IMG/VR virus record: IMGVR_UViG_3300021961_009334 | Coordinates: 1-63,244 of that record | Direction: 5' to 3' (one strand) | DNA length: 63,244 nt | Source of the DNA: a virus | Part shown: positions 5,877 through 62,384 of the stretch, piece by piece | Numbering within the stretch: position 1 is the stretch's first letter | Layout: each line of letters opens with the position of its first letter | Made by a program: the position numbers and the translations under genes | The notes under the pieces: model-generated | Told to the model about the DNA's origin: nothing | The model's database searches: none | The model's input: only the letters and a program-made list of their open reading frames with translations

Positions 5877-6881
5877 TTATTGAAAATTATAATCACTGTT
5901 ATTACATTCTAAACAAGTTTTACTAGAAGTCCACATTGATGGAACATACTGCCGATAAAAATCATTTTCAAGGATTTTATCCAATGTAATTTTATTGATA
6001 TTATTAAAGTTTTTTCCAAATTTTGTTTGTAGGTAATAGTAATTCCATTCTTTGTTGTATAATTTTTCCTCAGATGTAAAACAACAAGGCCACACAAGAC
6101 CATTACTGTCTAGTTGCAACCATCTTTCTTCCATCCATGGACAACTTACTTTTATGTTTTGATCATAATCAGGAGTGGTGATTTGTTTAAAAGTTTCGTT
6201 GTATTTAATTTGATATTCGACAGCATCGATCTTGTCGGGTGCAGTGATTATTCGTTGTGGAAAATTTTTATACTGAACTGCTTCGATTGTTGGTTGATAA
6301 CTGTTATGCAGATAAAATCTAGCAAAACCTAATTTTCGAGATATTTCTTTTGCTGATTGAATTTGATGTTTATTGTGATCAAAAATTATCATTCTCCATT
6401 CAGCAATACCTCCTTCATCTATAAAACATTTTGCATGTTCTATCACAGTGTCATAGTTAATGTTTCTTCTATAAATTGAAAGAGTATCGTCAAGTCCATC
6501 TAAAGCGAATGCTATCATATGATGAGAGAATTTTTGTAAAAGTTGGCTTAATTGTCTCCAAAAATTATTTGATTGCATACCTCCGTTGGTCATTACTTTT
6601 ACATCTAATGTAGGTTTTATTTTCAACAAATGTTCAATCATGTTTAAAAATTCAGGATGCATACAACAGTCTCCAAAATTACCATTAAAATAAATGCTTT
6701 TGATGTGTTTAAGGTTATGATTAGACATAATGTTACACCAATCTTCATAAACAATATGATTGAGTTTCAAAGAAGGGTTTAATTTGCCACCGCGTAAATT
6801 TCTAGCACAACTAGGACAAAATGAATTACAATATGTGGTTGGTTCTATTTGAAGCTGATGAATGTTTTCAAAAGAATACAA
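5877..6881 (-). CDS. radical SAM protein with SPASM-like C-terminus (1)
   Basis: A 334-residue protein starting from TTG (6879-6881). C18, C22 and C25 form the CxxxCxxC cluster that binds the [4Fe-4S] used to cleave S-adenosylmethionine. The core continues as a partial TIM barrel (FALDGLDD, MIIFDHNKHQ). A C-terminal cysteine set (SCPW, WPCCF and KTCLEC) fits a SPASM/twitch auxiliary cluster domain. The substrate is unknown; related enzymes modify peptides or sugars. It sits between two SGNH genes, eleven bases from one and one base from the other. Confidence 0.85.
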   Translation of the reverse strand: MYSFENIHQLQIEPTTYCNSFCPSCARNLRGGKLNPSLKLNHIVYEDWCNIMSNHNLKHIKSIYFNGNFGDCCMHPEFLNMIEHLLKIKPTLDVKVMTNGGMQSNNFWRQLSQLLQKFSHHMIAFALDGLDDTLSIYRRNINYDTVIEHAKCFIDEGGIAEWRMIIFDHNKHQIQSAKEISRKLGFARFYLHNSYQPTIEAVQYKNFPQRIITAPDKIDAVEYQIKYNETFKQITTPDYDQNIKVSCPWMEERWLQLDSNGLVWPCCFTSEEKLYNKEWNYYYLQTKFGKNFNNINKITLDKILENDFYRQYVPSMWTSSKTCLECNNSDYNFQ

Positions 6882-27892: not shown

Positions 27893-28228
27893 TTACTTGC
27901 GTGGAGAACTGCCTAGGTATAAACCAAACCAAGCCGCACCAGCACCAACCACAATTGATACCAACCCACTCTGTTCTAGATTAGGCACAGGCAAACTCAT
28001 AAACCAAGTTGTGACCTTGTAAACCAATATGATGTACACAGTCAAAAACACACGAGGCCATATTCTCCATGAGTCTACTGCTTGAGCAAGGTAAATCCAT
28101 TTTTTATAGGGATTTTGACTAAAGTCACGCATTGTAGCAGGAGGCGGAGTTATATCTACAGCAGGTGTTTCTTTTGCTTTAGATTCTTCTTGAATATTAT
28201 CGTCTTCTTCAACGTATGCCATCAACAT
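27893..28228 (-). CDS. membrane protein, holin-like candidate
   Basis: About 111 residues (or two fewer from the ATG at 28222). A charged N-terminal half is followed by two hydrophobic segments, VFLTVYIILVY and SIVVGAGAAWFGLYLG. The second matches a VVGAGAAWFGLY motif common in small phage membrane proteins. A late promoter adjoins the start. It could be the holin, but it is about 3 kb from the endolysin, so this is a guess. Confidence 0.5.
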   Translation of the reverse strand: MLMAYVEEDDNIQEESKAKETPAVDITPPPATMRDFSQNPYKKWIYLAQAVDSWRIWPRVFLTVYIILVYKVTTWFMSLPVPNLEQSGLVSIVVGAGAAWFGLYLGSSPRK

Positions 28229-29210
28229 TATTTATGGTTTTTTCAACATTTCCATAGTGCTTGTTGCGTAGTCCACACGATGTAATACATCTGCGTAAAG
28301 GTTTATTTTTCCAAGAACTCTCTAAATCACGCATAAAAAATGGGTGATTGAGAATAGTTTTTAAATCATTTGTGGCTAGATCATTCCAATCATGATTATA
28401 CCGATCAAACCAGTCTTTTAATTCCCCACCTAAGAAAGATTTTAAACTTTGTTGTTCTTCGTACAAATAAGCACACGGAAATATATGCCCAAAAACACTT
28501 ACATATAATTTTTTTTGATGTAGCCATTCGCAGTTAATTTCTTTAAAATTAGGTTTTTCATTGTCTTTTCTTTTTTGATAAACAACTAATTCTGCTTGTT
28601 GTTGTTTGGTGTTTATTTCTTCTATTTTAAAATTTCCACCCCAATTTGGTGCAGTAAGAAATTGCTCAAACCCCATATGGTTTGCTAACTGTTTAGCTTG
28701 TTCTATTTGATGTTGGTTATGATCAAATACAATAAATTTCCATCTAGCTCTGCCACCTGCTTTAATGAATGATTCAGCGTTAGTCATAATTTTTGACCAT
28801 ATGCTTCCTCTTCTATACAAGTGATTAGTATCTTGTAGTCCATCTATAGAAAAAACTAAAATACTTTCTTTGTTCATTGTTTTAGCAAGTAATTTAAAAT
28901 ATTCAGGATCACGCATAGAACCGTTGGTGTGTATTTGTTGTGTGATATGATTGGCATAAGAAATCATTTGCAAAAAATCAGGATGTAACAATGGATCGCC
29001 ATACATTGGTATAAATTGCAAAAGGCTAAGATTAGATTGGTCTATAAATTTTTTGTAAAGATTAATATTTAAATCTTGGTTATAAGGAAGATCCGGAGAA
29101 AGTTTTGATTTGTCATCTACGTCCACTCTAGGACATAAAGGACACATACAGTTACATTTAGTAGTAACTTCTATTTGTGCTTCATACGGATGACTTGTAT
29201 CAAGATACAT
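28209..29210 (-). CDS. radical SAM protein with SPASM-like C-terminus (2)
   Basis: A 333-residue protein. C19, C23 and C26 (TTKCNCMCPLC) make the radical SAM cluster. FSIDGLQDT and KFIVFDHNQHQ parallel the same regions in radical SAM protein 1. Later cysteines (INCEWLH, FPCAYL and CITSC) fit auxiliary Fe-S sites. A TAAAAT box lies six bases before the ATG. Substrate unknown. The closest relatives in the window are proteins 1, 4 and 5. Confidence 0.85.
   Translation of the reverse strand: MYLDTSHPYEAQIEVTTKCNCMCPLCPRVDVDDKSKLSPDLPYNQDLNINLYKKFIDQSNLSLLQFIPMYGDPLLHPDFLQMISYANHITQQIHTNGSMRDPEYFKLLAKTMNKESILVFSIDGLQDTNHLYRRGSIWSKIMTNAESFIKAGGRARWKFIVFDHNQHQIEQAKQLANHMGFEQFLTAPNWGGNFKIEEINTKQQQAELVVYQKRKDNEKPNFKEINCEWLHQKKLYVSVFGHIFPCAYLYEEQQSLKSFLGGELKDWFDRYNHDWNDLATNDLKTILNHPFFMRDLESSWKNKPLRRCITSCGLRNKHYGNVEKTINNVDGIR
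28229..28236 (-). promoter_or_regulatory. late promoter CATAAATA
   Basis: CATAAATA on the minus strand, directly before ATG 28228 and six bases before the in-frame ATG at 28222. The spacing elsewhere favours 28222 as the real start. Confidence 0.5.
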
Positions 29211-31897: not shown

Positions 31898-32608
31898 TTA
31901 TAGTTCCTTTGATTTTAATATTATACTTTTATCACCTTTAGCAATTTTAAAACAATCATCCATTTTAATAATTCTATAACCAGTTCCTATCCATGAATTT
32001 AAATAAGAACTTTGAGAGCTAGATGATTCGTCGATTTTGAATACAACATTTTTAACTTTTTTATTAATTGATTGTATTTCAAAAACATGGTTGCTAAAAG
32101 TTTTATTCATCTTTAAGTTTTTACCATCTCTTTGATATTTTATTTGAGATTCACTTAAGAATTCGCTTATAAATTCATCCAGTTTGTCGTCAGTTAAAAA
32201 AGCATATTCATCTGGATTAGTAGGAACTATATTTTTTAAATTATCTTCGTTCATTTTATGCAATGTAGGATCTTTATAAAATGAAAATTTCCATGGTTGA
32301 ATTCCTGTTAAATTTTCTACATCTCTTATCAATTTAAAAATGTTATTAGGTAAATTGTCGTCTCGTTTGATCTCAACAAATATATCATAATTACCATTGG
32401 TATTTTTACTTGGAGAGTGATCAGCGTCTAGGACAAACTTATGACCGGATTCGATAAATTGTACCAAGTCTTCAGCCACATTTTTGTTATTAGTTTCTAA
32501 TTTGATTACAGAAACATCTTCGTCATTGCCTAATTTCGCTTGATAATTGTCAATAGAAATCACTTCATTAACGTAACTCATCATTTCATTTTGAAGTATA
32601 CTTCTCAT
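31898..32608 (-). CDS. hypothetical protein next to radical SAM gene 3
   Basis: A 236-residue acidic, Asn/Lys-rich protein with no signal peptide or recognised motif. Its middle (NGNYDIFVEIKRDD) may form a beta sheet. It overlaps radical SAM gene 3 by four bases and is therefore probably its translational partner; a substrate or accessory role is possible but unproven. Confidence 0.55.
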   Translation of the reverse strand: MRSILQNEMMSYVNEVISIDNYQAKLGNDEDVSVIKLETNNKNVAEDLVQFIESGHKFVLDADHSPSKNTNGNYDIFVEIKRDDNLPNNIFKLIRDVENLTGIQPWKFSFYKDPTLHKMNEDNLKNIVPTNPDEYAFLTDDKLDEFISEFLSESQIKYQRDGKNLKMNKTFSNHVFEIQSINKKVKNVVFKIDESSSSQSSYLNSWIGTGYRIIKMDDCFKIAKGDKSIILKSKEL

Positions 32609-33762
32609 ATCTTAATATAATCTTTCCAATCTAACTTCCTTATTTTAGACAGAAGTTCTAAATATTTATCTATTGTATGTCTGTGCATCTGGGTTTCTTG
32701 TGGTGTAAACTGGTTTTCTAGAGCATTTAAACCATATTTTACATTTTCGCACTTGTGATGTTTGTGCTCTTTTGCATAATGAACATATAATTCTTTACTT
32801 TCATCGCTAGCCAAACTAGGTTTTAAATATATTGGATCCCAAACTAAATTTATATCCCAATCATTGATATAGTCATTGTTTTCAACCCAATTGCATATAT
32901 TAGGTATATCATGTACATTCATAGCATGCAGTGTTGTTTTAACACTAATTTTAGTATTGGACATTTTAGAACATCGTTCTATATTATCACTTATATTTTT
33001 AAAACTACTTGGCCATCTAATAAATTCATTTACTTTACCATAACCATCTATACTGAAGTCAAAATGCACATGATCGAATTCTTCTAATTTGGATAAAAGT
33101 TTTTGAGAAATTTTATGACCATTGGTTGTGATTTTTAAAGTAAGTTTTGTATTAATCTCGGATAGATATTCTAAGAATTTTTGCAGATAAGAATTAATAG
33201 TGGGTTCACCGCCAGTAAATCTAATATGTTTACACTGTGAAGCATATTCAGCTAATTCTTTTAATTTGTCAGACCTTTCGTACCACTGTAATCCTGGATT
33301 TAAAATTTTTTTAGAGTGAAAAGGAATCCCATGCGACTCAAATAAATCTTGATTGTTAATATTCTCGTGTTCAATCAAACTGCTAGCTACTGCACTACAC
33401 ATCACACATCCAAGATTACATAAATTTCCAAATTTAATCTCCATATCAAAAAGTTTAATTTGATTATTGTTAGGATATCGCAAAAAACCATCATTTAGAA
33501 TACTCAGTTCTTGATTGCCAATTGCAATATCATTTTGACAATCCATACACCCGCCTGCAGGAAATTGATCTTTTTTCATACTTTCTATGATATTTTTTAG
33601 ATAATCTGAATTAAAGTAGTCTTGGACTGAAGAATTGTTAAAGTTAATGACAGGAGAATCTTTGTAATGTTCGGCGTAGTCGATGTGGCGCCATGAACAA
33701 CATGGTCGAAAATTACCACGAGGGTCGATAGAAAGATGTTTTAAAGGCCAAAGGCAAAGCAT
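32605..33762 (-). CDS. radical SAM protein with N-terminal Cys-rich (twitch-like) arm (3)
   Basis: A 385-residue protein. The N-terminal 30 residues (LSIDPRGNFRPCCSW) and GGCMDCQ near 71-75 form a SPASM/twitch-like cysteine arm placed before the core. The core cluster is C115, C119 and C122 (CNLGCVMC), and RFTGGEPTI carries the GGE SAM-binding motif. Its architecture matches protein 6 but not 1, 2, 4 and 5. Substrate unknown. Confidence 0.85.
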   Translation of the reverse strand: MLCLWPLKHLSIDPRGNFRPCCSWRHIDYAEHYKDSPVINFNNSSVQDYFNSDYLKNIIESMKKDQFPAGGCMDCQNDIAIGNQELSILNDGFLRYPNNNQIKLFDMEIKFGNLCNLGCVMCSAVASSLIEHENINNQDLFESHGIPFHSKKILNPGLQWYERSDKLKELAEYASQCKHIRFTGGEPTINSYLQKFLEYLSEINTKLTLKITTNGHKISQKLLSKLEEFDHVHFDFSIDGYGKVNEFIRWPSSFKNISDNIERCSKMSNTKISVKTTLHAMNVHDIPNICNWVENNDYINDWDINLVWDPIYLKPSLASDESKELYVHYAKEHKHHKCENVKYGLNALENQFTPQETQMHRHTIDKYLELLSKIRKLDWKDYIKI

Positions 33763-42929: not shown

Positions 42930-43976
42930 TTATTCTAGTGTGCTATAAAGATAATTTTGCCTTTTTGCAAAGTCGCCACATTGTTTAAAACATTCATTTG
43001 CATGATAAGGTTGACCATAAATCCAACTTTTTTGTAGCAAGAAATTGTAATAATCGTGTTGTAAAATTTGTTCAATTGAATTCACATGTACATTGTTCCA
43101 ATTAACTCCATAGTCTTTTTCTAATTCTTTGATCCATGGAAGTTCATCAAAGTGATAATCTGTACTAAACCAACAACAAGGCCAGAGTTTTCCACTCCAA
43201 TCTATGAAAATTTCTTTTTTGTGTAACATCAAACAATTAATGGTGTTAGCCATTTCTGTATCAACATCTTTGTGTTTCCAATTTTTCACTTTATCATGTT
43301 CTGGATGTTTAAAATCTTCATCTGTCGAAATAGTTTGATTGACAACAACTGTTTGATCTTTTAATTTTGTTTTTACTGAAGATTGCCAATCTTTAATATT
43401 ACGAGTATTTTGTCTAAAGTACAAAGGGATTTTAAGTTTTTTTGAAATAAGTTTTGCATTTTCTATGTCAGATTTATTGTGCTGAAAAATCAAATAGTGC
43501 CATTCGCAGACTCCTCCTTGTTCAACATATGCGGTCATGTTTTCTAAAACCTTATTCCATTGCACATTTACTCTATACAAATGATTAGTGTTTTCACAAC
43601 CATCGACACTGAATATCATTTTTATTGCGTTAGACTGTTCTGAAAGTTTTCCTATTTGAGCAAATATTTCTGCCTTATTAGAACCTGTATTTGTATTAAT
43701 TTCAATCTCTCCGTGGTTTGCAACAATATACTCGCAAATGGAAACTATGTCCTTTACCATCATTGGTTCGTCTACTACACCACCCAGAGTAAAAGATTTA
43801 TTTTTGACTATGTTCTTTGGGAAAATTTTTTTAAAATCATCTATACTCCACTCCATTAATTGTTTTTTAAGATATGGATGAGTATCTCCATTTTGCGTCC
43901 TAGAACAGCCAGGACATCGTGCATTACATTTGTTTGTTAACTCTGTATGTATAATTTGAATATCGTCTATAATCAT
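42930..43976 (-). CDS. radical SAM/SPASM protein (4)
   Basis: A 348-residue protein; C17, C21 and C24 (NKCNARCPGC) form the radical SAM cluster. FSVDGCENTNHLYRVNVQW, the HYLIFQHNK segment and LWPCCWF parallel radical SAM protein 5 almost word for word, so the two are tandem duplicates. A C-terminal SPASM-like cysteine set (ECFKQCG) follows. It overlaps gene 5 by four bases. Substrate unknown. Confidence 0.88.
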   Translation of the reverse strand: MIIDDIQIIHTELTNKCNARCPGCSRTQNGDTHPYLKKQLMEWSIDDFKKIFPKNIVKNKSFTLGGVVDEPMMVKDIVSICEYIVANHGEIEINTNTGSNKAEIFAQIGKLSEQSNAIKMIFSVDGCENTNHLYRVNVQWNKVLENMTAYVEQGGVCEWHYLIFQHNKSDIENAKLISKKLKIPLYFRQNTRNIKDWQSSVKTKLKDQTVVVNQTISTDEDFKHPEHDKVKNWKHKDVDTEMANTINCLMLHKKEIFIDWSGKLWPCCWFSTDYHFDELPWIKELEKDYGVNWNNVHVNSIEQILQHDYYNFLLQKSWIYGQPYHANECFKQCGDFAKRQNYLYSTLE

Positions 43977-45034
43977 GTAAATTTATATCTCTGTCTAGAT
44001 CCTTGATTACCACAAGTTCTAAAACATGTTTTAGCATGGTATTTTGCTCCTGGCATCCAAGACTGTTCAAGAAGTTTATTATAATATGAATGATTTAAAA
44101 TATCAATTATAGAATGATGATGTAAACTATTCCATGTTATTCCAAAATCGTTATCCATTTGAGTCAAATACTGGTTTTCTAAAATTGTTTTGCCAAAATT
44201 ATAATCATTAGCAAACCAACAACAAGGCCATAGTCTTTGTTGCCAATCAATAAAAATTTCTTTTTGATGTAAACACACACAATGAATTGTTTTAAAATCT
44301 TCTAAGGATTGAGGTTCTAATTTATTGTCTCTTTTAAGTTGTATTTGTTTGTGTTCAAATCTAGCATCATATGTTGGTTCGACTAGATGTGTTGAAAGTT
44401 TTAATTCTCCATTTTGTTTGCTATAAACATGTGCTGTGTAAGGTTCTGTATTTCTCATATTTTGTCTAACCTTAAATGTTATTCCAAGACTGTTAGCTAA
44501 AATTTTTGCATCGTCTATGTCATCAATATTATGCTTAAATGCAAGATAATGCCATTCACAGTGGCCTCCTTGTTTAGCGTATGCTGTCATGTTTTCTAAA
44601 ACCTTATTCCATTTAACATTAATTCTGTATAAATGGTTTGTGTGTTCAAGGCCATCTACACTAAAAAACATTTTTAATCTATTGGTTTGTTTTGAAAGTT
44701 CTCCAAGTTTTTTAAATGTTTCTGCTGTATTACATCCTGTATTAGAAAAAATTTCTAAACTTCCGTTATTTGAAATAATATAATCTGCAATTTCATATAT
44801 TTGTGAATGCATCATTGGTTCATCGACAGTGCCTCCCAGTGTAAACATTTTTCCATCTATAAAAGTCTCAACAGGAAAAACTTGTTTGAATCTTTCCAAA
44901 CTCCATTCTGTGAGATTATTTTCTAAACTAGGATGAGTTTTTCCTTGGTAGGTACGAGCGCAGCCAGGACATCTAGCATTACATTTGTTTGTAATTTCTA
45001 CATGAATAGCAACAATTTCTTCAGCAGTTATCAT
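43973..45034 (-). CDS. radical SAM/SPASM protein (5)
   Basis: A 353-residue paralogue of protein 4; core cysteines C18, C22 and C25 (NKCNARCPGC). FSVDGLEHTNHLYRINVKW, HYLAFKHN and WPCCWF repeat the same landmarks. Overlaps both gene 4 and gene 6 by four bases (ATGA), so the three form one translationally coupled unit. The paired paralogues may act on similar or consecutive substrates. Confidence 0.88.
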   Translation of the reverse strand: MITAEEIVAIHVEITNKCNARCPGCARTYQGKTHPSLENNLTEWSLERFKQVFPVETFIDGKMFTLGGTVDEPMMHSQIYEIADYIISNNGSLEIFSNTGCNTAETFKKLGELSKQTNRLKMFFSVDGLEHTNHLYRINVKWNKVLENMTAYAKQGGHCEWHYLAFKHNIDDIDDAKILANSLGITFKVRQNMRNTEPYTAHVYSKQNGELKLSTHLVEPTYDARFEHKQIQLKRDNKLEPQSLEDFKTIHCVCLHQKEIFIDWQQRLWPCCWFANDYNFGKTILENQYLTQMDNDFGITWNSLHHHSIIDILNHSYYNKLLEQSWMPGAKYHAKTCFRTCGNQGSRQRYKFT

Positions 45035-46266
45035 TGTAGTAAATGATCATATTCAGGATAAATGTCTAGGAATTTTTTTGGTCTAGTAGCATCAAAATAT
45101 TGTACCATGTGTTGAAAATACTTTTTAGTTCGTGAATCCATAATCTTTGTAGGTTCGTTGATCAACCAATTGTGCCATTCTACATTTTCGCTCAATTCTT
45201 TGTCTTGAAGTTGTTTGATTGAATCTGTAATTTCATTGTAAATTTTCTGTCTTTCTTCTATAGGACAGTAAGAAAATCTCAAAGGTTCTGGTGTGTCTAA
45301 AACAGTTAAATCAAAAGCAATAGAATAAGTGTTGGCAAAATCTAAAAGTTTAGGTAAACCTTTAATATTGAGGAGTTGCATGGTTGGTTCTAAATTTAAT
45401 GAAAACTGTGGAAACTGACGAGCAATTTTATTAATTCTAATTATTTTGTCTTGTAACACTGACCAAACACTAGGATATCTCACATATTCTAATATGTCTT
45501 CTGTAGCATCTAAACTAATACCTAAAATAACTTTTTTGAATTTAGTTAGGTACTGTTCTATAAATGATTCTTTGATCACTGTACCGTTTGAAATTATGTG
45601 TAAGGTTATATGGCTGCTTTTATCTGCATCAACTAATTTTTTGATTAATTTGTCAAAACCTTTCATCACAAAAGGCTCTCCGCCAACTGCCCATATTTCT
45701 TCAGTGTGTTCGGCATGATCTACAATATGTTGTACAAATTTTTCATTGTAATTAAAATCCGAAGATGAATATTCTTCTACGGGCCATTCTGTAGAATAAA
45801 GGTTATCGGTATTTGTTTGATTGAATTGTAACATATTTTTTGCTATTTGATTGCTTAGTTGTGGTCTACACATTACACATTGTAAATTACATTCGTTGCT
45901 CATTCTTAAACTTAAACTAAGAGGAGATGGAACAATGGTGGTTGGATTATTGTAATAGTATTCGGTAAGTTTGTTAAATTTTTTATTCTCGTATATTCTT
46001 GATGAAATCATCCCTTGTTTTTCCCGTTCGATACAAATTCTGCAAATATCACTAGGCATTTTCCGTTCATTAAATGATTGTCTTAATTTTTGAAATGTTT
46101 CGCCATTCCAAATGTTTTCTACACTATTTTTAAGAACACTCAGTTCAGGTGAAATGGTTTGTTGTGAATCACAACACGCTCTCATTTGGGATTGTGTAGA
46201 CACAAACATTTTTACAAATGGATGTACACAAAAATTATCGTAACTATCTTCAGGTCTCGATGACAT
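45031..46266 (-). CDS. radical SAM protein with N-terminal Cys-rich arm (6)
   Basis: A 411-residue protein. N-terminal DNFCVHPFVKM, MRACCDSQ and SDICRICIE form an auxiliary-cluster-like arm; the core cluster is C126, C130 and C133 (ECNLQCVMC), with the SAM-binding AVGGEPFV following. Layout matches protein 3. It leads the three-gene radical SAM unit between fibre genes. Confidence 0.86.
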   Translation of the reverse strand: MSSRPEDSYDNFCVHPFVKMFVSTQSQMRACCDSQQTISPELSVLKNSVENIWNGETFQKLRQSFNERKMPSDICRICIEREKQGMISSRIYENKKFNKLTEYYYNNPTTIVPSPLSLSLRMSNECNLQCVMCRPQLSNQIAKNMLQFNQTNTDNLYSTEWPVEEYSSSDFNYNEKFVQHIVDHAEHTEEIWAVGGEPFVMKGFDKLIKKLVDADKSSHITLHIISNGTVIKESFIEQYLTKFKKVILGISLDATEDILEYVRYPSVWSVLQDKIIRINKIARQFPQFSLNLEPTMQLLNIKGLPKLLDFANTYSIAFDLTVLDTPEPLRFSYCPIEERQKIYNEITDSIKQLQDKELSENVEWHNWLINEPTKIMDSRTKKYFQHMVQYFDATRPKKFLDIYPEYDHLLQ

Positions 46267-50269: not shown

Positions 50270-50277
50270 TATTTATT
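50270..50277 (-). promoter_or_regulatory. late promoter AATAAATA
   Basis: AATAAATA on the minus strand, nine bases before the ATG at 50260. The TAA stop of the IscA-like gene (50273-50275) lies inside it. Confidence 0.55.
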
Positions 50278-50593
50278 TGACTGAGAACGAAGTGCCACAC
50301 CCACAAGAGGAATGGGCATTAGGGTTATTGTAGGTAAAGTATGAACCAAAGACTTCTTCCTTGTAGTCGATTTCTGTGCCCAAAACAAACAGTTCGCAGT
50401 TGGAATCCACCAACACAGTGATGTCACCAAACTGTAAAATTTGGTCTTTTTCTGTTTTATTTTCAGTTACATCGATTTTATAATTAAATCCAGCACAGCC
50501 ACCCCCTTTAACACCAAATCTAACATAAGGTTTGTTTTGTGCTTTTAATACTTCAAGCATCTTTTTTTGAGCTGATTCTGTTACTTTAATCAT
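50273..50593 (-). CDS. A-type Fe-S carrier protein (IscA/ErpA/SufA-like)
   Basis: A 106-residue A-type carrier. GVKGGGCAGF supplies C33, and SSCGCG supplies C97 and C99, the three conserved cluster-binding cysteines; the length is standard. These proteins deliver [4Fe-4S] or [2Fe-2S] clusters to apo-enzymes, including radical SAM enzymes. It is the last gene of the Nfu-SufT-SGNH-IscA operon. IscA versus ErpA cannot be decided by eye. Confidence 0.93.
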   Translation of the reverse strand: MIKVTESAQKKMLEVLKAQNKPYVRFGVKGGGCAGFNYKIDVTENKTEKDQILQFGDITVLVDSNCELFVLGTEIDYKEEVFGSYFTYNNPNAHSSCGCGTSFSVK

Positions 50594-50606
50594 ACTAATA
50601 TTTAAA

Positions 50607-51587
50607 TCAAATCTGTATCCATTTAGAGTGATTTAGAATTTTTTTAGTCCAAAGCCAGTGGGCAGTAATTTGTGGATGCCATTCACACAAAGGTACGTGA
50701 TCTAAAAAATTACAAAATTTTTCAATACAGTCTAACTGTTGATTTATTTCATTTTTAGTTGTATTTAGATTGATAATTTTGCTTGTCCATTTGTCCCACC
50801 ATTCAACTTCATTGCACAAAGGAAATGTTATGTTTTGATCAAACAATTTAGCAAGATATTCTACCCAACTTTGGGGAATTATGCTACGATTATTAGTGTT
50901 CATAATAGGATTAAAGTTCCTCCATATTAAAAAGTCTGCACTATATTGATTACAAAATCCTGAAATTAAATCTATCAACTGTTGTTCATATGTTGCAAAC
51001 CATTGTGTTAGAGATAATTTTTTTGTTTTATCGCCAAACATCCCCATGGTTGTACCCATGTAATTTTTATAGTATTCTGTGATGTTGTTCCATTTGGGGG
51101 AACTAAAACATCTGCCAGGAGATGTTATTTGAAACACAACTTTTATATTTTTATATTTTTTATGTAAAAAATGTAATACATCAGGCAAATGAAAAACTAA
51201 TTCAGTGTTATTGCATCCTGGTACTGCACATAGATATAGATCAGAACGTGTCAGTCTTGCACAGTGTCCTGCAAAAATATTATTCAATCTAAATGATAAA
51301 TTATCTTCCTTATCGATAGAATATACTTGAATGCCGCCATCGGCGTCATATAATCTGTCACCATAGGTCCAACTTTCTCCGATGACTACTATACATTGTT
51401 GCTGTTGTTTTGTAATCCATAGTTCAGTATTTTTTGCTGTTACACCAATTTCCAAATTGTGTTTGACACTGTGCATTTGATGTTTATCAATCCAATCAAA
51501 TGGCTGATTACTACGATAATCTATTTGGGTAAGTTCTAGTGGAGATGTCTTAAAATTTTCAACTAGATATCTAGTGTCTTGGATCAT
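50607..51587 (-). CDS. SGNH-like protein 4 inside the Fe-S operon
   Basis: A 326-residue protein. VVIGESWTYGDRL is a block I variant with the nucleophile Ser in G-E-S-W, CAVPGCNNTELVF fits block II, and VFQITSPGRCF resembles the ITSPGR/TTPGR block in SGNH protein 1. The C-terminal EWHPQITAHWLW may give the block V His. It is inserted between Fe-S genes and overlaps SufT by four bases, so it is likely co-expressed. Substrate unknown. Confidence 0.6.
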   Translation of the reverse strand: MIQDTRYLVENFKTSPLELTQIDYRSNQPFDWIDKHQMHSVKHNLEIGVTAKNTELWITKQQQQCIVVIGESWTYGDRLYDADGGIQVYSIDKEDNLSFRLNNIFAGHCARLTRSDLYLCAVPGCNNTELVFHLPDVLHFLHKKYKNIKVVFQITSPGRCFSSPKWNNITEYYKNYMGTTMGMFGDKTKKLSLTQWFATYEQQLIDLISGFCNQYSADFLIWRNFNPIMNTNNRSIIPQSWVEYLAKLFDQNITFPLCNEVEWWDKWTSKIINLNTTKNEINQQLDCIEKFCNFLDHVPLCEWHPQITAHWLWTKKILNHSKWIQI

Positions 51588-51883
51588 ATGCCTAGAGCAA
51601 GTCTAGTATCTTCAGGCATCATGTCAGGCCCAAATGGCGGATCGAAGGTTGTGATAATTTCAGCAACATCTATTCCATCTACTGATTCTGTAGCAAATTT
51701 GATATCTTCTACTATTTGATCAGCCACTGGACAAAAGGCCGAAGTTAAAGTATGAGTAATTTTTACTTTAGGAAGTTCTGTAATATCTATATTATAAATT
51801 AGTCCAAGATCATATACATTAATGTGTATTTCTGGGTCATAAACTTGTCTTAAGTTTTTGATAATTTCTTCTTCGATAGACAT
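51584..51883 (-). CDS. SufT/DUF59 (MIP18-family) Fe-S assembly protein
   Basis: A 99-residue single-domain protein of the DUF59/MIP18 family: VYDPEIHINVYDLGLIY is the diagnostic DPE...DLGLIY motif, followed by SAFCPVADQI with the conserved Cys and FDPPFGPDMM. SufT-type proteins help mature [4Fe-4S] proteins. It sits between the Nfu-like and SGNH genes with overlaps at both ends. Confidence 0.9.
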   Translation of the reverse strand: MSIEEEIIKNLRQVYDPEIHINVYDLGLIYNIDITELPKVKITHTLTSAFCPVADQIVEDIKFATESVDGIDVAEIITTFDPPFGPDMMPEDTRLALGI

Positions 51884-52401
51884 TATTGTAATCTCACTTG
51901 TTTTACTTCAGGTACTTTGACATGAACTTTATTAAACACAGCACCTAAAGTAGATTCGTGATTTGGACATCCCCAACAAGATCCTTGCATTTTAATTTCT
52001 ACTATGCCGTCTTTATATCTAATAAATCTAATATCGCCACCATCTAATTGTACTGATGGTCTGATTTCTTTTTCAATTATTTCCCTAACTGCACAACATA
52101 TTTCATCTGTACAATATGCATCTGTGTCACCTGATTCTATGTAAAAAAGTTCAGTTTCTAGAATTTTTTTGATCTTTGGTTTAATTTCTTCCCAGTCCCA
52201 TTGGGGGAACTTAGTAATAGTAATAAAATTTTCTTGCAATAATGCAAATCTTACTCCTGCTGTTCTGAATATTTTTTTGATAAAATCTCCACCATTAATA
52301 GCAAGGTCAATATCATACCAGATAGATCCAGAACCAACCAATGGCCTTAAAGCATAGAATTTTATTGCTTGTGGATTAGGAGTTGGTTCTGTTAAAATCA
52401 T
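51883..52401 (-). CDS. Nfu-type Fe-S carrier/scaffold
   Basis: A 172-residue protein with two parts. An Nfu N-terminal domain (TPNPQAIKFYALRPL) is followed by a NifU C-terminal domain with LDGGDIRFIRY and GSCWGCPN, whose CxxC is C142 and C145. Nfu hands [4Fe-4S] clusters to targets such as lipoyl synthase, a radical SAM enzyme. One-base overlaps with SOD and SufT place it in the operon core. Confidence 0.93.
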   Translation of the reverse strand: MILTEPTPNPQAIKFYALRPLVGSGSIWYDIDLAINGGDFIKKIFRTAGVRFALLQENFITITKFPQWDWEEIKPKIKKILETELFYIESGDTDAYCTDEICCAVREIIEKEIRPSVQLDGGDIRFIRYKDGIVEIKMQGSCWGCPNHESTLGAVFNKVHVKVPEVKQVRLQ

Positions 52402-53033
52402 TATGATTCTAAAAGTCTAGATTCAATAAACTTATAGTTTACCAGTTTGTTGATCCAATTTGTTAAGAATGCTTTTCTGTCATTTTTAAAATCTAAGTAA
52501 TAAGAATGTTCCCAAACATCACACGAAGCTAAGACTTCAACATCTTCGCCTACAGGATTGTTAGCATTAGAGTAAGATTTCCAAGTAACTTTTCCTTCTT
52601 CTAGTACAAGAAATACCCATCCAGATCCAAATTGGTCAACACCTTTTGCGATAAATGTTTCTTTAAATGAATCCAAAGACCCAAATGAATCTTCTATCTT
52701 AGATTGTAGTTCTGTAGATGGTTCTTCATATTTTGAAGTCATTGATTGCCAAAATATAATATGATTATAATTTTGTCCAGCATTATTAAAAATGCCATCG
52801 TTTGCATCACGAGAATCTACAATAATTTGTTTAAGACTTTTATTTTCGTACTCTGTTCCTTTAATATAATCATTCAATTTGTCGATATAAGTTTGATGAT
52901 GTTTACCATGATGCAGATCCAATGTGTCCCTGCTCATGTATGGTTCAAGGCTTGTTCTTGAATAGGGCAGTTCCATTAGGGTGAACTTGTCACCTTTTAC
53001 ATTGATATCATCTGCTACTTGATCTAATTTCAT
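52401..53033 (-). CDS. sodB: iron-type superoxide dismutase
   Basis: A 210-residue Fe/Mn SOD. Metal ligands are H41 (LHHGKHHQTY), H91 (NHIIFW), D172 and H176 (CDVWEHSYYLDF). NNAGQNYNH has Gln (Q87) in the position typical of FeSOD rather than MnSOD. The first 19 residues (MKLDQVADDINVKG) are an extra extension; an alternative start is the ATG at residue 20. It starts at the stop of the upstream gene. It would protect Fe-S enzymes from superoxide. Confidence 0.92.
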   Translation of the reverse strand: MKLDQVADDINVKGDKFTLMELPYSRTSLEPYMSRDTLDLHHGKHHQTYIDKLNDYIKGTEYENKSLKQIIVDSRDANDGIFNNAGQNYNHIIFWQSMTSKYEEPSTELQSKIEDSFGSLDSFKETFIAKGVDQFGSGWVFLVLEEGKVTWKSYSNANNPVGEDVEVLASCDVWEHSYYLDFKNDRKAFLTNWINKLVNYKFIESRLLES

Positions 53034-53203
53034 TATTTTTTCTTGGGTCGTCCTCGACCTTTTGTAGTTTTCTTTGTTGTGATTTTTTTAGTTGTTGTTT
53101 TCTTTTTTGTTTTTGGTGCTTCTACTGTTGTAGATTGAGCGGTAGCAGCTGTTGATGCTGTAGGCTCTTTATGTCCACCAAATAACCATGTTAGTATTCC
53201 CAT
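53033..53203 (-). CDS. small AT-hook-like basic protein
   Basis: A 56-residue protein from ATG 53201-53203, preceded by AGGAG. The N-terminus (GILTWLFGG) is hydrophobic, a Thr/Ala-rich linker follows, and the C-terminal half is Lys/Thr-rich, ending in KGRGRPKKK, an AT-hook core. The mixed membrane-like and DNA-binding design is odd. It is the first gene of the SOD/Nfu/SufT/IscA operon. Confidence 0.6.
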   Translation of the reverse strand: MGILTWLFGGHKEPTASTAATAQSTTVEAPKTKKKTTTKKITTKKTTKGRGRPKKK

Positions 53204-53228
53204 AATTAGGTCTCCTCTTTTTAACATT

Positions 53229-53257
53229 ATTATACTTATTTTATGTGGTTTTGTCAA
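53229..53257 (-). promoter_or_regulatory. sigma70-type promoter of the Fe-S/SOD operon
   Basis: TTGACA (53252-53257), 17 bases, TATAAT (53229-53234). The transcript would start near 53222, leaving a short leader with AGGAG before the ATG at 53203. Both hexamers are perfect. Confidence 0.8.
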
Positions 53258-54295: not shown

Positions 54296-54323
54296 ATTAT
54301 AGTTGAAGTTAAGATTTTGTCAA
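54296..54323 (-). promoter_or_regulatory. leaderless sigma70-type promoter of uvsE
   Basis: TTGACA (54318-54323), 16 bases, TATAAT (54296-54301), 6 bases, ATG at 54289. Both hexamers are perfect consensus. Confidence 0.85.
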
Positions 54324-55793: not shown

Positions 55794-55909
55794 TATTCGT
55801 ATATGAAAGGATCTCTTTTTCTAAGTTCTTTAATTTTTTTCCTAAAAGCAATTTCTTGTTTTATTTTGCGAATGGGCCAAAAAATAAAATTAATAATTTT
55901 TTTAATCAT
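55793..55909 (-). CDS. 38-residue membrane-associated protein
   Basis: Read directly: ATG at 55907-55909, TAA at 55793. MIKKIINFIFWPIRKIKQE begins with an amphipathic/hydrophobic helix, then a Lys/Arg-rich tail ending LRKRDPFIYE, a wording I recall from small T4-like phage genes beside carbamoyltransferase. It overlaps both neighbours by one and eight bases. Function unknown. Confidence 0.55.
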   Translation of the reverse strand: MIKKIINFIFWPIRKIKQEIAFRKKIKELRKRDPFIYE

Positions 55910-56354
55910 TACACTCGTATATAGCAGAATTATTTTCATGTTCCCAAATTTCTACCTTTTGTACTTTAACTCTACCATTAGTTTTTTTAAAAGTCCAGTC
56001 ATTGGCAAAATCGTACACAAATTTACAAGATGCCTCGATACCAGGCCCATATCCTTTTGTAACATCCATAATATTGATATTAATTACTCCAAGGTTGTGT
56101 AATTTTTTAATATCTTCTAGATTAGGATCATCAGATGCGATCAGTGTTCTGTGGTCCCATTGTTCTTCCAACCAATCTCTTACTTCGCCTAGAAATCCAA
56201 AATCCATTACCCATTGTCTGTGATCTAGATCTCCTGCAAATGTTATTTGCACATGTCTGCCATAACCATGAATAAATTTGCAATGACTGTCATCGCGCCA
56301 TTGTCTGTGTCCTGTACAGATAGGACCAAATCGTTTTGTTGAATAATATGCCAT
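55902..56354 (-). CDS. queD: QueD-like 6-carboxytetrahydropterin synthase
   Basis: A 150-residue T-fold protein of the QueD/PTPS family. SHCKFIHGYGRH supplies the catalytic Cys25 and His29, DFGFLGEVRDWLEE and QWDHRTLI fit the conserved DF and DH motifs, and VEIWEHENNSAIY has the substrate-binding Glu. The usual HGH zinc motif reads HGY (residue 31), although H34 follows; this variant looks phage-specific. It belongs to 7-deazaguanine (queuosine) synthesis. Confidence 0.75.
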   Translation of the reverse strand: MAYYSTKRFGPICTGHRQWRDDSHCKFIHGYGRHVQITFAGDLDHRQWVMDFGFLGEVRDWLEEQWDHRTLIASDDPNLEDIKKLHNLGVININIMDVTKGYGPGIEASCKFVYDFANDWTFKKTNGRVKVQKVEIWEHENNSAIYECND

Positions 56355-58320: not shown

Positions 58321-58348
58321 ATTATATACTCAAACATTAAATTGTCAA
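58321..58348 (-). promoter_or_regulatory. leaderless sigma70-type promoter
   Basis: TTGACA (58343-58348), 16 bases, TATAAT (58321-58326), 6 bases, ATG at 58314. Both hexamers are perfect. The region also lies before the divergent plus-strand operon. Confidence 0.85.
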
Positions 58349-61436: not shown

Positions 61437-61684
61437 GATGGATTGTTGATTATACCTCTGATAGAATGAATCCAACGCCAAGTGGCCAAGGCCATTATCG
61501 CCCATGCTCCGGTCATAAATCCTATGGAAAAAAAGAAAGGTTGAGCCCAAACAGAAACCCACATGCCGAATCGCCTTTCGCGATTGGTTTTGCCTGAAAC
61601 AAAATATATAGAAGTGACACTTCCTACCAGAGCAATGCCATTTAATATGTGGAACCAGTAATTATTGAAGTCTGCCAAAACCAT
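61433..61684 (-). CDS. small membrane protein
   Basis: An 83-residue protein from ATG 61682-61684 with about three hydrophobic segments (HILNGIALVGSVTSIYFV, WVSVWAQPFFFSIGFMTGAW). No named family. Overlaps the PP-loop gene by 23 bases and the next gene by four. Confidence 0.55.
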   Translation of the reverse strand: MVLADFNNYWFHILNGIALVGSVTSIYFVSGKTNRERRFGMWVSVWAQPFFFSIGFMTGAWAIMALATWRWIHSIRGIINNPS

Positions 61685-62384
61685 ATTCTCTTTCTCCACA
61701 CCACCAACATTTACCACAATGTTTGGAAAAATAGTTAGTTTCTGCTTCACAACTCCTAGTCATGGGAAATAATGTGTCTATTAAGTTATAATGTTCGTAT
61801 AATTCTGCTATAGCTTTTTTATCAACATTTGAAAAAGGTGCAAAACCATTTATCGTAATGTTTGAATTAGGAATTGGTTTATTTAGATTTTGGAAAATCA
61901 CTGCATCTTGTAATGGATATGAGTCAAATTCTGAATATTCATTGTCAGTTAAATCTCTTTCAGTATCTCTGTATTTCCATGTCCTTGTTAAAATTTTATT
62001 TTCTTCATAATTTATAGGATTAGCAGTGACTCCAATAAAATGAGCATCCAGATTAAATTTTTGATATGTTTGATATAAAGTTAACTCTTGTTCATCGACT
62101 AGAGCATCTTCACTTGATGCCATTTTGTTGGTATGAGAGGCAAATTTAATATCAAATGTGTTTTCTAACCAATCAATCACAGACTTTGCAAAATTAACTT
62201 GATAAGGTTTAAGAGGATTATCAAGAGTAATTGCATGAAAATTAACTTTGTTCTTAAGATGTTTACACAGTATAAAAGCTAAGAGAGAACTGTCTGCTCC
62301 TCCACTCATCTTGAGTCCTATGTTTTGAAATGATGAATCTATCGGAATTTTGATTTGCTTTTGTTCGGTAATTAATTCAATCAT
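61662..62384 (-). CDS. PP-loop ATPase, QueC-like
   Basis: A 240-residue protein. MSGGADSSLLA is the PP-loop (SGGxDS), and the C-terminus CEAETN, then CGKCWWCGEREYGF, is a zinc-binding cysteine set like QueC. QueC makes 7-cyano-7-deazaguanine for queuosine or DNA modification. Phage PP-loop proteins with this tail can have other uses, so QueC is likely but not certain. It lies downstream of the IF-1 gene. Confidence 0.65.
   Translation of the reverse strand: MIELITEQKQIKIPIDSSFQNIGLKMSGGADSSLLAFILCKHLKNKVNFHAITLDNPLKPYQVNFAKSVIDWLENTFDIKFASHTNKMASSEDALVDEQELTLYQTYQKFNLDAHFIGVTANPINYEENKILTRTWKYRDTERDLTDNEYSEFDSYPLQDAVIFQNLNKPIPNSNITINGFAPFSNVDKKAIAELYEHYNLIDTLFPMTRSCEAETNYFSKHCGKCWWCGEREYGFGRLQ

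Follow-up and report, generated by a model that had tools for sequence, protein, structure and literature searches.

The viral fragment IMGVR_UViG_3300021961_009334, analysed over its whole length of 63,244 bases (the window), carries on its minus strand a compact cassette of genes for predicted iron-sulfur (Fe-S) cluster carriers and an Fe-type superoxide dismutase (FeSOD), together with six radical S-adenosylmethionine (SAM) genes elsewhere (Table 1). The order runs from a promoter through an AT-hook open reading frame (ORF), FeSOD, Nfu, a DUF59 protein, an SGNH-like ORF and an A-type carrier to a tail connector gene. The AT-hook, SOD, Nfu and DUF59 genes are joined by stop/start overlaps of the form TAATG, the DUF59/SGNH-like junction overlaps as ATGA, and the A-type carrier gene begins 13 nucleotides (nt) past the SGNH-like gene, its end lying 12 nt short of the connector.

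Table 1. Cassette features and candidate client genes in the window, with further genes from related phages (positions prefixed by contig)
Feature	Position	Strand	Basis or remark
Sigma-70-type promoter, perfect TTGACA-17-TATAAT	53229..53257	-	Before cassette; predicted transcription start near 53222
56-aa Lys-rich ORF, AT-hook core KGRGRPKKK (RGRP)	53033..53203	-	Direct reading; first gene of operon
Fe-type superoxide dismutase (predicted)	52401..53033	-	PF00081 + PF02777
Nfu carrier, Nfu_N + NifU, CxxC 142/145, extra C97/C102/C103	51883..52401	-	PF08712 60.2 bits, PF01106 69.4 bits
DUF59 (FeS_assembly_P), SufT/PaaD-like	51584..51883	-	PF01883 8e-17, 61.7 bits vs cut-off 23.5
SGNH-like ORF, GESWTYG	50607..51587	-	Motif only
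A-type Fe-S carrier (IscA/SufA/ErpA-like), C33/C97/C99	50273..50593	-	PF01521 4e-17
Radical SAM/SPASM protein, CxxxCxxC at 18, candidate client	5877..6881	-	SPASM 29.6 bits, over cut-off; PF04055 21.8, under
Radical SAM protein, CxxxCxxC at 19, candidate client	28209..29210	-	PF04055 match and motif
Radical SAM protein, N_Twi_rSAM, CxxxCxxC at 115, candidate client	32605..33762	-	NF033640 236.9 vs 170
Radical SAM protein, SPASM-like end, CxxxCxxC at 17, candidate client	42930..43976	-	PF04055 match and motif
Radical SAM protein, CxxxCxxC at 18, candidate client	43973..45034	-	PF04055 match and motif
Radical SAM protein, N_Twi_rSAM, CxxxCxxC at 126, candidate client	45031..46266	-	NF033640 264.7 vs 170
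SufS-family cysteine desulfurase (G063)	L307:12819-14024		485 bits vs cut-off 475
FdxA ferredoxin (G063)	L310:12700-13065		154 vs cut-off 135
SOD gene (G063)	L308:5422-6108		
FTR1-family iron permease (G060, 38 kb, 13 radical SAM genes)	L206:4798-5427		Directly upstream of Nfu-DUF59

The cassette and its promoter

The SOD matches both domains of its family, and its ligands H41, H91, D172 and H176 are present and invariant in relatives, as is Q87, the N-terminal-domain residue at which Gln marks the Fe type; the best match in the PDB is an FeSOD (down to 2.7e-50), and the score against NF007832 is 177, the cut-off being 348. The Nfu protein exceeds the cut-offs of both its Pfam families (27), its AlphaFold model (mean predicted local distance difference test score, pLDDT, of 89) matches the solved N- and C-terminal domains of NFU1, and C142 and C145 are invariant across 22 phage and 31 bacterial Nfus. 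In its two domains, CxxC motif and predicted fold it resembles bacterial and mitochondrial Nfu (NFU1). A NifU domain is likewise found in a T4-like marine phage, in protein Q58MC7 of Prochlorococcus phage P-SSM2, although at 96 amino acids (aa) that protein is too small to hold both Nfu domains, unlike the Nfu of the window.

The DUF59 protein shares with SufT and SUF_assoc proteins the domain itself, the DPE..DLGLIY motif and a conserved cysteine region, with C51 present and invariant in relatives. It scores below the SUF_assoc (TIGR02945, 105.1 vs 143.4) and SufT (79.5 vs 202.6) equivalog cut-offs, and also below the curated cut-off for PaaD. The A-type carrier is over the curated cut-offs of PF01521 (62.9 vs 26.3 bits) and TIGR00049 (109 vs 58.8), its ligands C33, C97 and C99 are invariant in six phage homologues, and its nearest phage family is phrog_17776. 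As it falls below every equivalog cut-off (TIGR01997, 96.5 vs 136.2; TIGR02011, 72.3 vs 150.6; NF010147, 94.1 vs 117), it is not assignable to IscA, SufA or ErpA.

The promoter sits just past a UV-endonuclease gene. The window holds three perfect promoters, with 0.21 expected, and the 114.8-kb relative G017, in which much of the window has recognisable versions with gene order largely kept, holds 14, with about 0.2 expected; these excesses argue for a genuine promoter class in these phages. The other two in the window lie at 54296-54323 and 58321-58348, both on the minus strand and each just before a gene. Several of those in G017 begin TTGACAGATT, which suggests a distinct phage promoter class. 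In relatives the position of the cassette promoter is likewise occupied by a perfect promoter: it ends in ATAAGTATAAT in L008, L012, L020, L022, L025, L034 and L099, has a different spacer in L014, and has another spacer in L101 and L190. In L014 a radical SAM gene directly follows a perfect promoter of this class.

An earlier reading of the window, made from the sequence only, had placed here an IscA-like protein with C33, C97 and C99, an Nfu-like protein with a CxxC at 142/145, a Q87-bearing Fe-type SOD and a perfect TTGACA-17-TATAAT promoter. Each of these was borne out, the promoter being conserved in relatives and the metal type of the SOD being predicted from its residues. Its SufT-like protein stands as a DUF59-domain protein and falls short of the NCBIfam cut-offs for the named families. 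The first ORF of the operon, which it began at a TTG at 53257, was corrected to an ATG start at 53203. The resulting protein has a hydrophobic N-terminus, and a homologous ORF occupies the same place in the cassette relatives inspected; from its motif it may possibly be a DNA-binding regulator or a histone-like protein.

The SGNH-like ORF, taken by the sequence-only reading as tying the operon to modification genes, did not uphold that link. Of the SGNH blocks (GDS/GES, G, N, DxxH) only GESW is seen and is the sole support for the assignment, no Pfam family is matched, and a single-sequence fold model is unusable (pLDDT 32). No relative of it was found among the viral contigs, and it is absent from 14 cassette relatives. 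Since it occurs in the cassette of the window only, it is cargo rather than core.

Conservation of the cassette and divergence of Nfu

Cassette order was compared in 14 viral contigs, aligned neighbours lying no more than 50 nt apart, and the order SOD-Nfu-DUF59-IscA recurs in all of them. Where synonymous divergence (dS) was unsaturated, pairwise ratios of non-synonymous to synonymous substitution (dN/dS) were 0.04-0.12, indicating that the cassette proteins are under purifying selection and are not decaying fragments. The space between IscA and the connector varies, with a sulfotransferase-like gene (a weak match) in L012, an FkbM methyltransferase in L013, and, in L025 and L099, an opposite-strand radical SAM gene of 619-646 aa adjoining the carrier gene.

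In five relatives (L020, L022, L025, L034 and L099; subclade 2) the protein in the Nfu slot is about 31% identical to the window Nfu, whereas SOD is 69-75% and IscA 67-72% identical. In the Nfu tree the window type (10 sequences, support 100/100), the subclade-2 type (93/86) and the type of a further set of phages, group 3 (100/100), form separate clades, and the very long branch of the window type fits replacement and extreme divergence alike. That an Nfu is retained in the same slot despite this divergence argues that its function is wanted, or selected, there. No close bacterial source of the phage Nfu was found among 399 genomes from the phylum of one Alphaproteobacteria metagenome-assembled genome, where the best match was about 35% identical, and annotated phage records gave distant matches only, many of them on records resembling bacterial DNA.

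The window Nfu differs from the bacterial Nfus compared both in this identity of at most about 35% and in three extra cysteines, C97, C102 and C103, which make up the motif C-T/D-DEICC where the first helix of the NifU domain begins. They are present in 10/10 window-type Nfus, whereas a cysteine at these positions is found in none of the 12 other aligned phage Nfus and none of the 31 bacterial ones. From the motif, a second cluster site and a redox switch are both open possibilities. A bolder proposal, in our view speculative and unlikely, is that the window-type (clade-1) Nfu is a modified carrier in which this CX4CC motif makes a second cluster site or redox switch, an oxygen-tolerant resupplier of [4Fe-4S] clusters with the SOD as its working partner; if so, it would resupply phage radical SAM enzymes that consume their auxiliary clusters during turnover.

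Neither a desulfurase nor a scaffold (IscU, SufBCD) was found among the main ORFs of the window scanned with Pfam, the window being a fragment. Group-3 phages carry an Nfu-DUF59 pair along with 2-13 radical SAM genes per record; in G063 (92 kb) the pair lies directly behind a perfect promoter and the record holds six radical SAM genes. The SufS and FdxA of this group (Table 1) have no BLAST match in the window or in G017, on which ground the cassette is taken to depend on clusters made by the host, as a system of delivery and not of assembly. The sequence-only reading had seen in the operon a maturation and oxidative-protection system of the phage's own; the conserved, promoter-driven carrier/SOD operon supports part of this, whereas, with no desulfurase or scaffold seen, only late carriers remain. 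Bacterial contamination was considered as an origin for group 3. The suspicion came from L201, a viral record in which a full-length cytochrome b gene (L201:4562-5851) and neighbouring genes for SbmA/BacA and aldehyde dehydrogenase lie near Nfu and DUF59; this stretch may be either phage cargo or bacterial. For G063 contamination was rejected, since this record has ribonucleotide reductase, UvdE and many further proteins in common with the 115-kb relative G017.

Radical SAM genes in Nfu-bearing phages

All six radical SAM proteins expected from the sequence-only reading, spread over 5877-46266, have the CxxxCxxC motif and match PF04055 with E-values of at most 0.001; the family cut-off is exceeded by 3/6 in the genome scan and by 2/6 in the protein scan, in which the other four fall below it. 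The set itself appears changeable: subclade 2 has no recognisable copies next to the cassette of the trio that the window encodes at 43-46 kb, and in G017 several radical SAM proteins of a B12-binding kind are found instead.

Co-occurrence with Nfu, whose absence the sequence-only reading had named as refuting it, was found in a sample of 71 mostly partial records, in which radical SAM genes were counted across whole records and NifU was scored partly by seed searches. Among records of at least 20 kb, radical SAM genes are present in 17 of 18 that are Nfu-positive as against 16 of 53 that are Nfu-negative (Fisher p=2.5e-6). With near-duplicates removed the counts are 12/13 and 16/51 (p=9e-5), and among records with some Fe-S carrier or SOD they are 12/13 and 14/30 (p=0.006). 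Radical SAM density is 9.8 per 100 kb in Nfu-positive and 2.8 in Nfu-negative records.

Several observations weigh against a strict dependence of the one on the other. Among records of at least 60 kb the difference is not significant (4/4 vs 6/11, p=0.23), and the p-values altogether overstate the case because the records are fragmentary, interrelated and marker-selected, with the window among the 18. A 108-kb relative that shares the connector (G014) has six radical SAM genes and 0/3 carriers, and in a 328-kb record (G059; L203, IMGVR_UViG_3300020477_000990) 22 radical SAM genes occur together with a DUF59 gene and without any NifU match. The converse is seen in G024 (129 kb), with an A-type carrier and no radical SAM gene. 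Carriers thus accompany radical SAM-rich phages but are not required by them, and G014 and G024 as counterexamples leave no support for carriers that serve radical SAM enzymes exclusively.

Around these genes, the window encodes T4 gp9/10-type connector and tail proteins, a gp44-like clamp loader, PhoH, DnaJ, a Clp ATPase and a carbamoyltransferase. A PTPS (QueD-like) gene at 55902-56354 and a QueC-like gene at 61662-62384 suggest a deazapurine-type modification pathway; a search for QueE among the six window radical SAM proteins gave nothing beyond a weak match under the cut-off. G017 encodes a TonB-dependent receptor-like outer-membrane protein (L176:7397-9211) and, by Pfam, a CHASE2-adenylate/guanylate cyclase (L177:2446-4485); a 66% identical cyclase in G063 (L307:5331-7376) has in its vicinity a protein that matches the curlin repeat.

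A proposed role in late cluster trafficking

On balance, we favour reading the cassette as a phage operon that handles late Fe-S cluster trafficking under oxidative conditions, serving foremost the phage's own radical SAM proteins. The set is conserved and usually stands alongside many radical SAM enzymes, and therefore probably keeps oxygen-sensitive enzymes charged during infection. In such a scheme, the strong, dedicated, host-type promoter would yield one message for FeSOD, Nfu, the DUF59/SufT-like factor and the A-type carrier. Clusters would be built by the host ISC or SUF machinery and taken up by the A-type carrier and Nfu, which, possibly with the DUF59 protein, would pass [4Fe-4S] clusters on to apo-enzymes, the phage radical SAM proteins foremost among them. 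Superoxide attacks and destroys [4Fe-4S] clusters, and the SOD would lower the superoxide to which exposed clusters would otherwise be lost. The transfer of clusters, its clients, its timing and the protective part of the SOD are all inferred. Links of this kind have support in the literature on bacteria and mitochondria. Lipoyl synthase, a radical SAM enzyme, regains its auxiliary cluster through NFU1/NfuA (PMC9585516); NfuA may act with ErpA as a delivery system that withstands oxidants, and defects in sufT and nfu are synergistic, the functions of SufT and Nfu overlapping (PMC8593673). The interpretation first drawn from the sequence thus gains from the conserved operon, the association of Nfu with radical SAM genes and the literature, and loses its complete system, its SGNH link and its exclusivity.

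The carriers and SOD could instead be mainly host-directed, sustaining Fe-S proteins of the host that serve respiration, biosynthesis and the stress response in an infected, oxidatively stressed, iron-poor cell, with the radical SAM genes incidental. A-type carriers and DUF59 genes are widespread in marine phage contigs (565 and 158 loci), and the majority adjoin no recognised client; NifU and IscA have been termed common phage proteins (PMC8190135), viral Fe-S genes have been interpreted as aiding the host stress response (PMC8940887), and the unpaired cases G024 and G014 fit such auxiliary metabolism. The roughly threefold higher radical SAM density of Nfu-bearing records, and the radical SAM gene directly adjoining the carrier gene in L025 and L099, speak against it, and we regard this explanation as possible but rather unlikely. 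Quite improbable, to our mind, is that the SOD is the main point of the operon, as a shield against superoxide from the infected host or from light, with the carriers repairing host clusters. FeSOD is indeed the first enzyme of the operon, with all its ligands conserved, and other phages, including 167- and 266-kb records, have SOD genes without carriers. The SOD-only records G055 and G056 lack both NifU and radical SAM genes, so that SOD alone does not bring carriers along, and the window retains three different carriers with its SOD. The position of the cassette directly before the connector gene might also suggest a role in the virion, in which the carriers load metal or clusters into neighbouring tail proteins. 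This was rejected as extremely improbable: the adjoining connector and tail proteins contain 0-2 cysteines each and lack an HxH motif, and cargo genes, in one case with opposite orientation, can come between the cassette and the connector gene.

Fe-S assembly for virally encoded proteins is not a new concept. In the passage of Nishimura et al. (2017) that describes it, on the marine phage TARA_ERS488813_N000010 and related genomes, the 183-kb T4-like genome has an A-type carrier, a PaaD (DUF59) protein, 12 radical SAM genes, Cas4 and Grx, and an Fe-S metabolism in which the host and many virally encoded proteins take part was proposed (PMC5332604). The window, with its T4 gp9/10-type and gp44-like genes, likewise belongs to a marine T4-like phage and has carriers and several (six) radical SAM genes. 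That passage reports no Nfu-type carrier, SOD or single conserved promoter-driven operon; conversely, the Grx and Cas4 listed there were not identified in the window. What is apparently new is the combination of FeSOD and a two-domain Nfu in one conserved operon, the divergent Nfu in the same slot and the clade-specific cysteine motif. No report of a phage Nfu and FeSOD in one operon was found in a mostly open literature, which is weak evidence of absence.

If cluster trafficking for phage enzymes is indeed the role of the cassette, phages can possess a selected unit, under a promoter, that both delivers clusters and protects against superoxide and that fits a radical SAM repertoire which itself changes, and it becomes testable whether cluster supply limits the activity of oxygen-sensitive phage enzymes in surface seawater. 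The presence of a cysteine desulfurase, a ferredoxin or an iron permease in some relatives suggests that these phages have repeatedly captured portions of the route leading from iron and sulfur to radical chemistry.

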